A stretch of DNA of 37,251 bases, taken from positions 1 through 37,251 of the forward strand of contig JAENZP010000021.1 in NCBI GenBank assembly GCA_016841205.1, written 5' to 3'. Under the pieces are notes generated by a model. It saw only the letters and a program-made list of their open reading frames with translations, made no database searches and had not been told where the DNA came from. Source of the DNA: Desulfoscipio geothermicus. GTDB lineage: Bacteria > Bacillota > Desulfotomaculia > Desulfotomaculales > Desulfallaceae. A program made the translations under genes and the position numbers. Positions 2,765-14,843 of the stretch are shown piece after piece. Each line of letters opens with the position of its first letter. Position 1 is the first letter of the stretch.

Positions 2765-4684
2765 TTAACTTATTTTTAATAATCGTAAACTGTTTAAGGT
2801 TACGATTAACGTTGCTCCCATATCTGCAAATATGGCTATCCACAGGGTTAACCAACCGGGAATTACCAATAGTAAGGCCATTGCTTTAATTACCAAAGAG
2901 AAGGTAATATTTTGCTTAATGATAGCCAAAGCCCTCCGGCTTAATTTAATTGTATAGGGCAATTTGCTTAAATCATCAGACATTAAAGCGATATTCGCCG
3001 TTTCCAATGCTGTATCGGTTCCGGCCCCACCCATTGCCACACCAACGGTGGAAGCCGCTAGTGCCGGTGCATCGTTCATGCCATCCCCAACCATTGCTAC
3101 ATTTTGATGGTTTGCCCGCAGCTTTTTAATGAAATTCAATTTATCTTCCGGCAGCAAATCAGCTTTAATATCCGAAACACCGATTTCTTTCCCAATTGCT
3201 TCTGCTGTTCGTTGATTATCACCGGTGAGCATGATTGTTTTTTCTATCCCAATTAGATGAAGCTTGCGGATTACTTCTTTTGATGATTCCCTAATTTCAT
3301 CAGCCACGGCAATTAATGAAAGGATATCTTTTTCCGTGCCTAAAACCATGACGGTTTTGCCTTCCGTTTGCATACGAGCAATTTGTTCTCTGATGGTACT
3401 TTCAATTTTAGATTTATGCAAATCCTCAAAGAGATTCGGACTTCCTATATAATACAGTTCATTATTTACTTTTGCCATTACGCCTTTCCCCGTAATGGAT
3501 TGGAAATCTTCAACCGGCAGATTACAATTTATTCCTTTTTCTTCTGCTTTTCTCATAATCGCTGAGGCAAGGGGATGCTGTGATCCTTTTTCAAGGGCCG
3601 CTGCAATGGTAAGTAATTTATTTTCGTTGCCACCATATGTCACAACTTCTGCCACCACCGGAACACCTTTGGTTAATGTACCTGTTTTATCAAAAGCGAT
3701 GACTTTTAAGGCACCGGCTTCTTCTAGATAAATGCCGCCTTTTATTAATACACCGTTTCTGGCCGCATTGCCTACTGCAGTTACTACGGCAACCGGCGTT
3801 GAAACGACCAGGGCACAAGGACAGCCGACCACTAAAACTGCTAACCCCTGATAGATCCATTTGTTCCAGTCCCCCTCAAATAGCAGTGGAGGAACAACTG
3901 CAATTAATAGAGCCAAGACAATGACAGCCGGCGTATAATATCGGGCAAATTTATCGACAAATGCTTGAGATGGTGCTCTTTCTGCTTGAGCTTCTTCTAC
4001 TAAATGAATAATTTTTGCAAGAGTTGTGTCTTCCGCTCTTTTGGTTACTTTTACCTCTAATAATCCTTCTTCATTAAATGTTCCAGCAAAGACCTCATCA
4101 TTAATCGTTTTGGTTACTGTAACACTTTCTCCGGTAATGGCAGACTGATTTAACGTAGATATCCCCTTGGTAACTGTTCCATCCATTGCTACTTTTTGCC
4201 CGGGCTTCACGATCATAATATCGCCCACTTGAATATCTTCAGTGTTGACCATCATTTCTAAATTGCCAAGACGGATAAGCGCTTCCTTGGGGGCAATATC
4301 CATTAAAGATTCAATAGATTGACGGGCTTTATCCATTGAATAACGCTCTAATGCTTCACTGATGGTAAATAGAATGACAACAGTAGCGCCTTCGCCCCAT
4401 TCTCCAATCACAGCGGCCCCTAAAATAGCCACTGTCATTAGTGTATTTATATCAAAGTTGAGTCTGCCTAAGTTTTTAAAACCTTGAATAAATAGCGAAT
4501 ATCCCCCAATAAGGATGGCAGCGGCATAACCAATTGTCGGAAGCATTTGCCCTTCCCCGTATTGCAGTGATGAAAGCCAACTGATCACAAGTAATATCGC
4601 CGATATATATACTTTAACGTTCTCTTTCTGTTTCCAGAACGGTTCTCGTGCTACCGAATTTTCTTTCTCATTGCGCACCTTCAA
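2765..4684 (-). CDS. cadA: Cd/Zn/Pb-type P1B metal-exporting ATPase (CadA/ZntA-like)
   Basis: This membrane pump exports soft divalent metals (Cd, Zn, Pb) using ATP. In numbering from the TTG at 4684, the metal-site motif is C288-P289-C290 inside a membrane helix and the phosphorylated Asp is D332 in DKTGTLTKG. The TGES actuator loop (ITGES), the class-specific HP pair (SQHPLAS) and the hinge [11 protein letters not shown] are all present, with about eight predicted membrane helices. The core is complete and ends normally. The start is the difficulty: the TTG at 4684 has no good ribosome binding site, and the same frame continues upstream through a recognisable HMA domain interrupted only by a TGA (see 4685-4879). 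If that TGA is decoded, the protein gains roughly 65 residues and matches normal CadA architecture. No ArsR/CadC regulator gene is adjacent. CPC with HP and no CopA-type signature favours Cd/Zn over Cu. Confidence 0.92.
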
Positions 4685-4879
4685 GTTTTCAAAAGCACCG
4701 GCTTTTTCGATTGCTTCAATGGTCGTACTGCCATAAACTGTTAGTTTAGAGGCGCCAAAATTTACTTTTGCATCAGTAACACCATCCAGGTGTTTTACGT
4801 TCGTTTCGAACTTCTTTGCGCAGTTAGCTCAGGAGAACCCCTGAATACGGTATGTTTTTATTGCTTCAAGCTCAGATAT
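4685..4879 (-). pseudogene. N-terminal HMA domain of the ATPase with in-frame TGA at the CxxC Cys (selenocysteine candidate or decayed)
   Basis: Read in the frame of the downstream ATPase, this stretch encodes a typical heavy-metal-associated domain. It runs YRIQGFS, then TGA, then ANCAKKFE, and further on [14 protein letters not shown], joining the ATPase without a break. In relatives the TGA position is the first Cys of GFSCANC. The second Cys is present, so decoding as selenocysteine would give a U-x-x-C metal site. A small stem-loop lies at a suitable distance (4799-4811). Against translation, no ATG, GTG or TTG occurs in frame between the upstream stop (TGA at 4887-4885, minus strand) and the domain. 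The GTG at 4889 runs into a stop after five codons, and the best in-frame candidate is an ATA at 4879, nine bases after a GGGGG. It is filed as a pseudogene only for want of a better class; selenoprotein and pseudogene are both open. Confidence 0.6.
4799..4831 (-). promoter_or_regulatory. Candidate bacterial SECIS element with TGA codon
   Basis: The TGA is at 4831-4829 (minus strand). Twenty-one bases further on is a loop beginning with G (GAAAC) closed by the stem GTTC/GAAC at 4811-4799, or five pairs if the inner G-C is counted. Bacterial SECIS elements place a small loop with a G in its first positions roughly 16-37 bases after UGA, so position and loop fit. The stem is short and would occur by chance fairly often. 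Confidence 0.4.
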
Positions 4880-4912
4880 TGATTTTCACCCCCTTACTTT
4901 TGAGTTAATGAC

Positions 4913-4923
4913 ATAATGATTAT
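4913..4923. promoter_or_regulatory. Short palindrome upstream of the ATPase, possible metal-regulator site
   Basis: ATAATgATTAT is a 5-1-5 palindrome about 25 bases upstream of the ribosome binding site for the HMA/ATPase frame. It recalls the core of Fur/Zur-type boxes but lacks their full 7-1-7 extent, and AT-rich sequence yields such palindromes by chance. Confidence 0.2.
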
Positions 4924-5044
4924 TAGATTAACCGCTAATACCGGCTTTTATTTTGTACGCATGCTCTAAGTTTCTAATCATTCATGATACTGGATTAATA
5001 TATGACTATAATCCAACCGGATATTTAGTCTCCAGCATACGGTA

Positions 5045-6172
5045 CTATTCATATTGGCTGCGCAATTTGGCCAGTGCAGTCTTTAGTTGTTCAGGACTAT
5101 TTATGTTTTTAAGTAATTTCTCCACATATAAAGACTTGCTTGGGTTCTGCATGTCATTCATGGTTACATAAACCCCGGCCCGCCTGCCCAGCTGGAAATT
5201 AGCTTTTTCTTGTGGTGTCATACCAAGATAGTGATCAATAATCTCCAGCAATTTATCCCGGTCACCAGGCAGGGTACCCTTTAATTCCTGCAGCAAATTG
5301 CGCATGTGATCACTTACCACCGTAGTAGTTACCCCTTCCAGCGACTCAAGCAATGAACGTTGTTCTCTAACCACTTCATCCTCATCTAAGGGTGTAAAAG
5401 CACCACTGGTCATCATTTCATGTAAAGGAGTATTTTTGAGTACAGAAAGTGTTCTAAAACGCATATAGTCCGGATTTCCCTGGTTAATCACAGCAGCGGT
5501 TCCCAGAGCATGTTCCCTGGTATGCTCTCTGCCGCCCAACCCGGGCATGATGTACCAGCATAGCGATATACCGGAAGCCTTGATTTTTTGAGCAGCTTCA
5601 ATTAATTGGCTAGCAGTAATTCCCTTTTGGATCATTTTTAATACTACGTCTGATCCCGATTCCATGCCCATGTGTATTCTATCCAGACCGGCTTTTCGTA
5701 GTTCACGTAGTTCATCTGTGCTCTTTCTGGTTACCGTATTTGCCCTGGCGTACATGGTTACCCGTTCCACCGAGGGCAAGATTACACGCAGATATTGAAT
5801 AATTCGTACTAAATCACTAGTCTTTAATACTAATGAATTAGCATCTTGCAAAAAAACATTTTTGCCGCCGTAATATAGCCACTGAGCAACATGGTAATGC
5901 AAATAGCCATAGCGTGAGCCTGCTTCATTTACCACTTGTTCGTTTATCCGTCCATCCAATCCCTTATTCCAGGAAATTTGCCTGACTTGCTCGACAACCT
6001 GGGCTACGGAATCTATGTCCCGTTGCACATCTTCAACCGGGCGCCTGCTGAATTGTTCGCCTTTGTAAGTTATGCAAAAGGCGCATTTATTCCAAGGACA
6101 GTTTCTAGTTACCCGAATAAGCAAACTAGATGCCTCGCTGGGTGGCCTGATCGGACCTTGTTCAATTTGCAT
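5045..6172 (-). CDS. Radical SAM protein of unknown substrate
   Basis: This is a 375-residue radical S-adenosylmethionine enzyme. The cluster-binding motif is C25-PWNK-C30-AF-C33, which is CX4CX2C, one residue longer than the canonical CX3CX2C. It is followed by a TIM-barrel-like sequence with MGMESGSD and a glycine-rich MPGLGGREH. I chose the ATG at 6172 because GGAGG lies nine bases upstream; a longer reading from 6244 would put that ribosome binding site inside the gene. The C-terminal third is helical and charged, and there is no obvious B12-binding or second Fe-S domain. It is transcribed toward the metal ATPase, whose HMA frame begins about 150 bases after its stop. Members with this cysteine spacing occur in anaerobes, but I cannot name a reaction. 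Confidence 0.8.
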   Translation of the reverse strand: MQIEQGPIRPPSEASSLLIRVTRNCPWNKCAFCITYKGEQFSRRPVEDVQRDIDSVAQVVEQVRQISWNKGLDGRINEQVVNEAGSRYGYLHYHVAQWLYYGGKNVFLQDANSLVLKTSDLVRIIQYLRVILPSVERVTMYARANTVTRKSTDELRELRKAGLDRIHMGMESGSDVVLKMIQKGITASQLIEAAQKIKASGISLCWYIMPGLGGREHTREHALGTAAVINQGNPDYMRFRTLSVLKNTPLHEMMTSGAFTPLDEDEVVREQRSLLESLEGVTTTVVSDHMRNLLQELKGTLPGDRDKLLEIIDHYLGMTPQEKANFQLGRRAGVYVTMNDMQNPSKSLYVEKLLKNINSPEQLKTALAKLRSQYE

Positions 6173-8228: not shown

Positions 8229-9533
8229 TTATGCATTTCCTGTAAAGGTTAGATAAAGCAACACAGCGTTAAGGGAGATAATGAGCGAAGTTATTATCCA
8301 ACCAATGGTATTTGTCAGTGGCTTATTTACTAACGTGCCCATAATATCTTTACGTTTAGTAATAAGCATTAAAGGTATTATTGCCAAGGGCAGAGCAAAA
8401 CTAAGGACCACCTGACTCATGATTAGCGCTTTAATAGGGTTGATACCCATAGCTATGATAACCATTGCTGGCGTCATTGTAACCAGTCTTCTAACTAACA
8501 GAGGAATATTCAAGTTAACAAAGCCTTTCATGATGGTCTGCCCGGCTAATGTCCCCACCGCCGAAGAAGAGAGTCCGGAGGCCAGCAAGGCTATACCAAA
8601 GGCTCCACTGGACAGGGAACCAAGCAGGGGAGTCAGAGACTGGTGTGCTTGCTCAATGGATTCCACCCTCATACCCTGAGTAAAAAACACCGAGGCCGAA
8701 ACCACAACCATTGCGGCATTAACCAGAAAGGCAATATTCATGGCCAGGACAATATCCATAAGCTCCAGTTTAAAGTGTTTTTTCTTCTGAGCATCTGTTT
8801 GGGGTGTCTTACGGGACTGTACTAACTGCGAATGCAGGTAAATAACATGGGGCATTACCGTGGCTCCCAGCATTCCTACTGCAATTAAAACCGCTTCACC
8901 GTTAGGTAGAGAAGGAACAAGAGTGTGCAGGCCAACCTGTGCCCAGTCCGGTTTAGCCAGGAATAATTCTATGGCATAGGCACCTGATATAACTGCCACC
9001 AAACCTGCGATAACGGCTTCAACAACCCTCTGGCCGTATCTTTCTAAGTAAATAATAATAAAGGTTAATACGCCGGTAGCCAGGCCAGCATAAACTAACG
9101 GGATATGGAATAACAGGTATAAACCCAGAGCCCCGCCAAGAAATTCCGCCAGGTCCGTAGCCATTGCAGCAAACTCAGCAGCAATCCATAAAAACCAGTT
9201 GGTCTTTCTACTAAAAACTTTACCACACATTTCCGGTAGGTTAGCACCCGCGGCAATGCCAAGTTTGGCAGAAATGGATTGCAGGAAAATAGCCATTAAG
9301 TTACTCCACAGAATAACCCATACTAGGTTGTAGTTAAATATTGACCCACCACTTATGTTGGTAGCAAAGTTGCCGGGGTCAATATAGGCCACGCTTACAA
9401 TAAAAGCAGGTCCTAAGTACTTTAGGAATTGTCTAAAGCGGCTAAAAACCTGGGAACGATTATAGGTTATAATACTCCCGAAACTAACATCAGCTGTTTG
9501 AGCTGATATGCTTTCAATTTTTACCTCCTGCAA
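8229..9533 (-). CDS. mntH: Nramp-family manganese/divalent metal transporter
   Basis: This is a proton-coupled importer of Mn(II) and related divalent metals in the cytoplasmic membrane. The 434 residues give eleven membrane helices. The helix-1 metal-site motif DPGNFATN is intact and the helix-6 site appears as the MPHVIYLHSQLVQSR region (Met-Pro-His), which together define Nramp transporters. The start is TTG at 9533, with GGGGTG eight bases upstream. A second strong AGGAGGT lies just inside the gene but has no normal start after it. It is divergent from mntR with a 144-bp spacer, the usual arrangement in which Mn-loaded MntR represses mntH. The first 30 residues are polar and not conserved. 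Confidence 0.93.
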   Translation of the reverse strand: MQEVKIESISAQTADVSFGSIITYNRSQVFSRFRQFLKYLGPAFIVSVAYIDPGNFATNISGGSIFNYNLVWVILWSNLMAIFLQSISAKLGIAAGANLPEMCGKVFSRKTNWFLWIAAEFAAMATDLAEFLGGALGLYLLFHIPLVYAGLATGVLTFIIIYLERYGQRVVEAVIAGLVAVISGAYAIELFLAKPDWAQVGLHTLVPSLPNGEAVLIAVGMLGATVMPHVIYLHSQLVQSRKTPQTDAQKKKHFKLELMDIVLAMNIAFLVNAAMVVVSASVFFTQGMRVESIEQAHQSLTPLLGSLSSGAFGIALLASGLSSSAVGTLAGQTIMKGFVNLNIPLLVRRLVTMTPAMVIIAMGINPIKALIMSQVVLSFALPLAIIPLMLITKRKDIMGTLVNKPLTNTIGWIITSLIISLNAVLLYLTFTGNA

Positions 9534-9677
9534 GTCAAAAACACCCCTTTTTTACAAGACTAATAAAATTACCTGCAGCTATCTTCTTTTCACTTAACTA
9601 AAATATGAAGAAATTTCAAAAAAGGTGATTCATATAAATATAAAAACAGGTATATATTTTTAAAATACTGTCTTTAT

Positions 9678-10160
9678 ATGATGGGTGATGAAATTGTGGA
9701 TAAGGAGTTTTTTACTTTTCGGGAATATATGAAAAAAGATGATAAGCTAACGGCCTCTATGGAGGATTACTTGGAAATGATTTACCGTATATCCAATGAA
9801 AAGGGCTATACCAGAACCCAAGACTTGGCAATTGCTCTCAACGTCCAATCGCCGTCAGCCACCAGGATGATACAGAGGATGTCCGGGCTAAAGCTGGTAA
9901 ACTACGAAAAATACGGGATTATCACTTTGAGTCAAAAGGGGAAAGAAATAGGCGAGGCTCTTCTGCACAGGCATATGATGGTGGAGGAATTTCTTAAATT
10001 AATTGGGATTACCAAAAACATCCTGGAAGAAACAGAGAAGATTGAACATACCATCAGTATAGAAACTTTACAATGCATTGCAAACTTAACAGCTTTTCTT
10101 AAGAATAACCCGAAGGTATTGAAAGCTTTTGAGGACTTTCAAACCCAAAATACGTTTTAA
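9678..10160 (+). CDS. mntR: MntR/DtxR-family metal-dependent transcriptional regulator
   Basis: This is a DtxR-family repressor with a winged-helix N-terminus (SMEDYLEMIYRI, then TRTQDLAIALNVQSPSATRMIQRM as the helix-turn-helix) and a dimerisation domain with the metal-ligand region (LLHRHMMVEEFLKLIG). It lacks the C-terminal SH3-like domain, as in MntR. It very likely senses Mn(II) and represses the divergent mntH. The start is uncertain. The ATG at 9678 has no ribosome binding site; GTG at 9696 follows GGGTGATG; ATG at 9729 follows CGGGA and gives an N-terminus closer to known MntR proteins. The 144-bp divergent region is AT-rich, and I could not see a clear MntR box in it. Confidence 0.88.
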   Translation: MMGDEIVDKEFFTFREYMKKDDKLTASMEDYLEMIYRISNEKGYTRTQDLAIALNVQSPSATRMIQRMSGLKLVNYEKYGIITLSQKGKEIGEALLHRHMMVEEFLKLIGITKNILEETEKIEHTISIETLQCIANLTAFLKNNPKVLKAFEDFQTQNTF

Positions 10161-13455: not shown

Positions 13456-13788
13456 GTGGAGAGTTATTACAACCCGGCTGACTTGAGTAAATTTGCTACC
13501 ATTGGTGAGGAAGCACCTGAATTGTGGGAAAAGTTTATGGCCTATTACAGTGCGGTATTTCAGGCCGGGGCCCTGAGTACCAGGGAAAAAGCTCTTATTG
13601 CTCTGGCTGTGGCCCACGCCGTGCAATGTCCCTACTGCATTGAAGCTTATACTCAGGAAGCCCTTGAAAAGGGATCCAACGAGGAACAAATGACTGAAGC
13701 GATCCATGTTGCGGCTGCCATAAAAGGAGGTGCTGCTCTGGTACATGGGGTGCAAATGAAAAACGTTTGTAAAAAACTGGGGTTTTAA
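13456..13788 (+). CDS. Arsenosugar biosynthesis-associated peroxidase-like protein (CMD/AhpD family)
   Basis: This is a 110-residue carboxymuconolactone decarboxylase / AhpD-like protein. The redox motif is C-PY-C in HAVQCPYCIEAYT, a CxxC followed by the helical EKGSNEEQMTEAIHVAAAIKGG. Relatives beside arsS can carry selenocysteine at the first Cys position; here both are cysteine codons. The start is GTG 13456 with AAAGGATG upstream. It lies 20 bp before arsS and is almost certainly co-transcribed with it. The reaction is unproved, and a thiol-peroxidase or transfer role is inferred. Confidence 0.88.
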   Translation: MESYYNPADLSKFATIGEEAPELWEKFMAYYSAVFQAGALSTREKALIALAVAHAVQCPYCIEAYTQEALEKGSNEEQMTEAIHVAAAIKGGAALVHGVQMKNVCKKLGF

Positions 13789-13808
13789 AAACAATTGTGG
13801 AGGTCTAA

Positions 13809-14843
13809 ATGGCTTTGAATTATAAGTATTCTCCCGGCGATGAGCTGGATCAGTTGCATTACTTAAATAGTGTTGATAACTTGGTTCCGTTCGAGCAAAA
13901 GATTAAAGAAACCGGTCTATTCCCCATTCGAAGTGATGATGTATCCGTGCTGCAGGTAAATGTAGGTAAAGTTTGTAACCTTTCTTGTAAGCACTGCCAT
14001 GTTAATGCCGGCCCTAACAGAACGGAATTGATGAGCAGGGAAACCCTGGCATGCTGCTTGGAGGTGCTGGCTGGTGCGGACAGCATCAAAACTTTGGATA
14101 TCACCGGTGGAGCTCCTGAATTAAACCCTCATCTACCCTGGTTTATCTGGGAGGCTACCAGTATAGGGCGCAAGGTTATGGTGCGTACTAATCTTACCGT
14201 GTTGGAGCAGGACCAGAATATGTACTTGGCCGGCTTTTACGCTTCGCAGGGAGTTGAAGTAGTGGCCTCTTTACCGTATTATCAGGGGAAAAACACCGAT
14301 CGCCAGCGAGGTCAGGGCGTGTTTGACGCGTCAATACGGGTGCTGAAACGTTTGAATGAACTTGGCTATGGCCAAGCAGGAACTCACTTGCAATTAAATC
14401 TGGTTTATAACCCGGGTGGGGCTTTTCTGCCGCCAGACCAGCAGACTATTGAGGCTGATTACCGCCGGGAATTGTCACACCGCTACGGAATAGTTTTCAA
14501 CCAATTATATACGATGACAAATGTGCCGCTGGGGCGCTTCCTGGTATTTTTACAGCATTCCGGCAATTCAGCCAGGTACATAGAACGTTTAGCCGGGGCC
14601 TTTAATCCAGCAGCGGCCAATCGGGTGATGTGTCGCAATCAAGTTTCGGTTGGGTGGGACGGCCGGCTTTATGATTGTGATTTTAACCAGATACTGGGCC
14701 TGGTTTGTTCTCCAGACGTTCCCGGGCATATCAACGATTTTGATATTAAAGTTCTGCAAAACCGGCGCATCGTGGTTGCTAATCATTGTTACGCTTGTAC
14801 TGCGGGTGCTGGTTCCAGTTGCGGTGGTTCAATTACCGGCTGA
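13809..14843 (+). CDS. arsS: Arsenosugar biosynthesis radical SAM protein ArsS
   Basis: This is a 344-residue radical SAM enzyme with the canonical cluster motif CNLSCKHC (CX3CX2C). It matches ArsS in its N-terminal sequence (ETGLFPIRSDDVSVLQVNVG), the DITGGAPELNP segment and the C-terminal DUF3641-like part ending HCYACTAGAGSSCGG. Known ArsS acts on an arsenic-adenosyl intermediate on the way to arsenosugars; that is family knowledge and is not shown here. Some relatives have selenocysteine in the C-terminal motif; this one has Cys. GGAGG lies upstream of the ATG. ArsM (arsenite methyltransferase), normally needed first, is not in the window, so it must lie elsewhere or the substrate differs. 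Confidence 0.92.
   Translation: MALNYKYSPGDELDQLHYLNSVDNLVPFEQKIKETGLFPIRSDDVSVLQVNVGKVCNLSCKHCHVNAGPNRTELMSRETLACCLEVLAGADSIKTLDITGGAPELNPHLPWFIWEATSIGRKVMVRTNLTVLEQDQNMYLAGFYASQGVEVVASLPYYQGKNTDRQRGQGVFDASIRVLKRLNELGYGQAGTHLQLNLVYNPGGAFLPPDQQTIEADYRRELSHRYGIVFNQLYTMTNVPLGRFLVFLQHSGNSARYIERLAGAFNPAAANRVMCRNQVSVGWDGRLYDCDFNQILGLVCSPDVPGHINDFDIKVLQNRRIVVANHCYACTAGAGSSCGGSITG

Follow-up and report, generated by a model that had tools for sequence, protein, structure and literature searches.

The minus-strand gene at positions 2765–4879 of the window, as the whole analysed stretch of 37,251 nucleotides from Desulfoscipio geothermicus is called here, almost certainly encodes a selenoprotein CadA with a UxxC motif. 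This reading follows from four lines of sequence evidence: a conserved TGA, a covarying hairpin, the presence of the selenocysteine (Sec) machinery and purifying selection after the UGA. With high confidence, the product is predicted to be a P1B-type efflux ATPase of the ZntA/CadA branch, in which UGA codon 17 would be translated as Sec through SelB, tRNA-Sec and a SECIS element, giving a U-x-x-C site in the heavy-metal-associated (HMA) domain. The features of the locus are as follows.

2765..4879, minus strand: predicted Sec-containing heavy-metal P-type ATPase gene (CadA/ZntA branch), stop included; frame open except for one TGA; TIGR01525 and TIGR01512
4887..4895, minus strand: ribosome-binding-site-like AAGGGGGTG, 7 nt before the AUA; read from the sequence; kept in G010
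4877..4879, minus strand: AUA, apparent start codon; ATG at this place in genomes G014 and G011, ATA in G010
4703..4855, minus strand: HMA domain; PF00403 above cut-off
4829..4831, minus strand: UGA codon 17, predicted Sec, first UxxC ligand; TGA in 4/4 genus orthologues and in 12/12 TGA genes of the order
4799..4811, minus strand: SECIS hairpin 1, core GUUC-GAAAC-GAAC; 87.4% of cells paired in 33 Sec genes
4778..4794, minus strand: possible hairpin 2, AACACC-UGGAU-GGUGUU; 84.3% of cells paired in 33 Sec genes

The pump gene, its TGA codon and the Sec machinery

The pump frame runs from 4879 to 2765 and is limited upstream by a stop at 4888. The sole in-frame stop before its end is the TGA at 4831–4829, which occupies the first Cys position of the CxxC motif, so that the motif reads GFS-U-ANC. 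The initial annotation had placed an in-frame TGA exactly at this Cys and had described the frame as continuing into the pump without another stop. Both statements are borne out, and the span it gave, 4799–4831, corresponds exactly to the UGA plus the hairpin. As is expected of a bacterial selenoprotein, the in-frame UGA is aligned with Cys of the homologues and the frame is conserved on both sides of it. The PF00403 match to the HMA domain covers codons 9–59 and scores 40.4 bits against a cut-off of 24.8. The pump protein exceeds the cut-offs of TIGR01525 (heavy metal ATPase) and TIGR01512 (cadmium subfamily); the TIGR01512 match, a CPC motif and an HMA domain with UxxC place it in the CadA/ZntA (P1B-2) group. 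The closest solved full-length structure is the zinc ATPase 4umv, which covers pump residues 9–702. The mechanical list of open reading frames begins the pump at TTG 4684, after the HMA stretch; gene callers that stop at the TGA drop the HMA domain.

Four of the seven genomes of the genus have an orthologue (77–90% identity), and in all four the same TGA is the sole stop. The other three carry stop-free relatives of 49–51% identity. The search of the order (113 genomes, E up to 1e-180) yielded 55 matching genes, of which 12 contain a single TGA and 43 lack one, and in 12/12 the TGA is located at the first Cys of CxxC. The class search covered an equal number of genomes (113), and its listed matches are all among those of the order. 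A Bacillaceae family was sampled by 193 genomes around Neobacillus vireti, which contain at least 150 pump matches; among the 150 matches listed, 119 genes have one TGA and 31 have none. The TGA was located in 16 of these 119 genes and stands at the first-Cys codon of CxxC in every one, as read by a regular expression that detects only TGA or Cys codons at the motif. The TGA is thus kept without extra stops in the homologues, where further stops had been named as a sign of decay, and the proposed alignment of homologues gave a conserved TGA together with a conserved and covarying hairpin. A distant pump of the Chloroflexota (L134, 4028–4090; Anaerolineales UBA2181) also has a TGA at the same CxxC position, with its own hairpin, GGUC-CGUGA-GACC, at an equal distance from the TGA.

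The initial annotation had regarded the absence of the Sec genes as decisive against its proposal; the genome carries the complete set of selA, selB, selC and selD. The selA gene adjoins selB on contig C7, and ARAGORN detects a tRNA-Sec with the anticodon TCA on contig C6. The selD gene (G000:C24:126799-127719) itself has one in-frame TGA and encodes a full SelD if this codon is read as Sec. Throughout the order selB is present in 109/113 genomes, including 12/12 genomes with a TGA gene; since it is nearly universal there, its presence says little. Among 12 Bacilli genomes, selB was found in 5/5 with a TGA gene versus 1/7 with a Cys gene (Fisher p 0.015). In the Bacillaceae family, 116/119 TGA genes versus 17/31 Cys genes lie in selB genomes (p 7e-9), by a hand count over the 150 matches listed. 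Both p values serve as a guide only, because genes and genomes are related. No selB was found in 23 genomes of this family sample, among which G299, G311 and G314 were assigned by elimination. The three TGA genes in genomes without a found selB belong to G291, G293 and G311, and they may be stranded genes or reflect incomplete genomes. G291 (G291:C223:5934-8027) and G293 (L176) carry TGA pump copies beside Cys copies.

Hairpins downstream of the UGA codon

In bacterial SECIS elements a G stands within the first two loop positions, and the hairpin lies 16–37 nt from the UGA. Hairpin 1 agrees with this: its G-initial loop GAAAC begins 21 nt after the UGA. The stem-loop with a G-initial loop at 21 bases reported in the initial annotation was thereby recovered as GUUC-GAAAC-GAAC at 4811–4799. 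In many relatives two extra pairs (4797–4813) extend it.

The conservation of the structure was assessed in an alignment of 33 distinct Sec sequences, derived from 36 TGA loci (L089 included), and in a control of 33 close Cys sequences chosen from 75 distinct ones. The two-hairpin structure has 85.9% of cells paired in the Sec sequences, and the covariation score and the number of paired cells are above those of 500/500 shuffles; the count of double-sided pair changes is above only 481/500. In hairpin 1, three of six pairs are changed on both sides. The 33 Cys sequences pair in 55.3% of cells of the same structure, with no excess over shuffles; the paired cells fall to 60.6% for hairpin 1 and to 50.0% for hairpin 2. 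RNAalifold predicted only the core of hairpin 1 and not hairpin 2, a feature absent from the initial annotation. A search of Rfam over 4600–5050 gave nothing relevant, only two chance matches below the gathering score.

The geometry of the element was examined gene by gene, with 23 diverged loci excluded from both this test and the tree input. A score of at least 9 was reached by 31/32 distinct Sec genes versus 15/52 Cys genes, and in 26/32 Sec genes the best hairpin lies at 21 nt with a 5-nt loop. The exceptions include L050, L053 and L167, with a hairpin at 16–17 nt, and L045, L055 and L077, with the top score at 32–35 nt. Taken per gene the test is weak, with values below 0.05 in 4/32 Sec genes and 2/52 Cys genes. 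Folding energy compared with synonymous shuffles gave a mean z of -1.45 in 12 Sec genes versus -0.06 in 26 Cys genes (p 4e-4). The hairpin of the window gene taken singly is not significant: its z is -1.26, 13% of synonymous shuffles fold equally well, and 11% of shuffles score equally well in the geometry test. The weight of this hairpin as evidence therefore derives from its conservation among relatives and not from a single-sequence test. Over the 36 nt spanning both hairpins, the window and Neobacillus vireti are identical. Nine Sec genes were compared over the 18 codons that follow the UGA, where they average 79–86% identity to other Sec genes and 55–61% to Cys genes; over the rest of the HMA domain their average identities are alike, 71–76% and 67–76%, respectively.

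Start codon, selection and alternative readings

The window gene has no in-frame ATG, GTG or TTG ahead of codon 66; the first candidate start further upstream is the AUA at 4879, which the initial annotation does not mention. In G014 and G011 the ATG start is preceded by a ribosome-binding-site-like stretch. By alignment with these genes, translation in the window gene would begin at AUA. The apparent AUA start is also seen in L015, the nearest relative of the window species, and two other species of the genus have ATG.

The loss of ATG was the reason why decay was examined before other explanations. According to this reading, the HMA domain is no longer expressed because of a nonsense mutation and the missing ATG, and the pump is made from the internal TTG 4684 or GTG 4678. 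It is consistent with ATA in place of ATG in the window genome (G000) and G010, with the location of the window pump gene, which has no adjoining ArsR-type regulator as G014 has, and with codons 2–16, which show no constraint between the window and G010 (1 synonymous and 4 nonsynonymous changes, only five in all). However, the same TGA recurs across many independent genomes in which the gene has no further stop, and the hairpin covaries in Sec genes. Furthermore, codons 36–65, located ahead of any ATG, GTG or TTG, evolve under purifying selection: a comparison of the window with G010, the other species with ATA, shows 7 synonymous against 2 nonsynonymous changes (omega 0.06, p 0.0007). They are at least as constrained as codons 66–440 (omega 0.17). 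The HMA frame is thus most likely still translated, presumably from the AUA. Given the conserved TGA and the selection on codons 36–65, decay was rejected, and we consider it very unlikely. A reading in which another tRNA inserts Cys or Trp at the UGA, or in which programmed read-through operates without selenium, is less credible still. It would account for a frame open across the codon, but it leaves the complete Sec system, the covarying SECIS-like hairpin and the link to selB in Bacilli unexplained.

A selenium-dependent switch is improbable, yet less so than these two. With selenium the full pump would be made; without it, translation would stop at codon 17 and begin again beyond the HMA domain, yielding a pump that lacks the metal-capture domain. 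The UGA is just 17 codons from the start, two potential start codons, TTG (codon 66) and GTG (codon 68), come after the HMA domain, and the family includes paralogous pumps whose match starts at residue 91 or later. Such a switch would supplement Sec decoding and not replace it.

We infer from the gene sequence that the pump product carries Sec. SelB and tRNA-Sec would decode UGA codon 17, directed by the hairpin with its loop 21 nt downstream, and Sec insertion would yield the U-x-x-C metal site of the N-terminal HMA domain. By analogy with the known family, the metal would meet the UxxC of the HMA domain, then the transmembrane CPC site, and would then be exported at the expense of ATP. The selenolate could act as a soft ligand that hands Zn-, Cd-, Pb- or Hg-type ions to the pump. 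Compared with Cys, Sec is the softer ligand, and it is in its ionised form at neutral pH; at the HMA site it may therefore give preference to Cd, Hg, Pb or ions like them.

Genomic context, apparent mobility and relation to known selenoproteins

In G014 an ArsR-type regulator immediately precedes the pump gene, and a similar frame lies before the pump gene in G011. The pump genes of the window and G010 have a radical SAM gene upstream. Elsewhere in the window, 13456–14843 encodes an arsenosugar pair, a peroxidase-like protein (TIGR04169) and the radical SAM protein ArsS (TIGR04167); both families are described as selenoprotein-linked, and no in-frame TGA lies within their listed window frames. 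The product of 11552–12019 matches the C-GCAxxG-C-C family (seleno)protein TIGR01909 above cut-off, in the Cys form. A manganese pair, an MntH-type Nramp transporter and a divergent MntR-type regulator, occupies 8229–10160.

A quick LG+G4 tree of 89 pumps, calculated with the HMA domain removed and without bootstrap, places the four Sec genes of the genus inside a clade that otherwise consists of Bacilli and plasmid genes (clades of 48 rows at support 100 and 32 rows at 97). This placement suggests that the pump gene entered the genus from Bacilli. At least 13 changes between Sec and Cys are required on the same tree, 9 of them on well-supported branches. Two of five plasmid pump copies examined, from Cytobacillus and Halobacillus, contain the TGA, and their annotated coding genes span it, so public annotation already reads through there. 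In protein trees the label changes once in the HMA domain (weak support) versus four times in the pump body, which had suggested a swap of the whole Sec-HMA cassette onto Cys pumps. This idea was rejected, as the SECIS constraint explains most of the signal: without the SECIS region the rest of the HMA domain resembles Sec genes and Cys genes to a similar degree in identity, and trees of parts give 1 to 5 label changes. L190 alone retains a supported placement among Cys genes, in one pump part.

Tentatively, and with not quite even confidence, we propose that Sec-CadA is a mobile metal-resistance selenoprotein, which would combine movement among Bacilli, Clostridia-type bacteria and plasmids, a portable two-hairpin SECIS, selenium as a metal ligand instead of a redox catalyst, repeated switching between Sec and Cys and, in the present lineage, an AUA start.

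The closest Cys relatives are the CadA pumps of Bacilli. Those of Bacillus badius (L084) and Paenibacillus (L083) share 81–82% identity over the pump and the same domain order, and the solved HMA domain of a Bacilli Cys CadA, 2aj0, matches residues 9–73 of the window pump. These pumps differ in having CxxC where the window pump has UxxC, in lacking the hairpins and in residing in hosts mostly without selB. The kind of Sec pump described here is already known as a prediction from very few examples. PMC13188914 lists the selenoprotein 'cation-transporting ATPase E1-E2, TIGR01525, UxxC' with one accession, ABB15669.1, and a table in PMC2398784 has the same kind of ATPase with counts of 1 and 1. 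By its listed description, this ATPase shares the TIGR01525 subfamily and UxxC with the window pump. It is represented in that list by a single accession, whereas Sec-CadA occurs here on a scale of hundreds in one Bacillaceae family, with plasmid copies and an apparent AUA start. PMC13188914 also predicts Sec at possible metal-binding positions of mercuric transport proteins and of SaoB/SaoC, as in the window pump, but these belong to other protein families. PMC1794560 counts 3 selenoproteins in Bacillales. No paper on a Sec CadA or on its spread in Bacillaceae or plasmids was found in the literature searched, in which the breadth, mobility and start codon of Sec-CadA seem to be undescribed. 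New here are the breadth, the plasmid Sec copies, the apparent transfer from Bacilli, the anatomy of the SECIS and the apparent AUA start.

Some groups of bacteria carry Sec-CadA commonly. In the majority of well-studied bacterial selenoproteins, Sec serves redox chemistry; the pumps described here form a large set with Sec predicted at a metal-capture site instead. The plasmid copies and the apparent transfer between classes would make Sec-CadA an unusually mobile selenoprotein. Since some Cys pumps reach 88% identity to Sec pumps over the pump body, natural pairs are available for testing how selenium and sulfur differ in metal binding.
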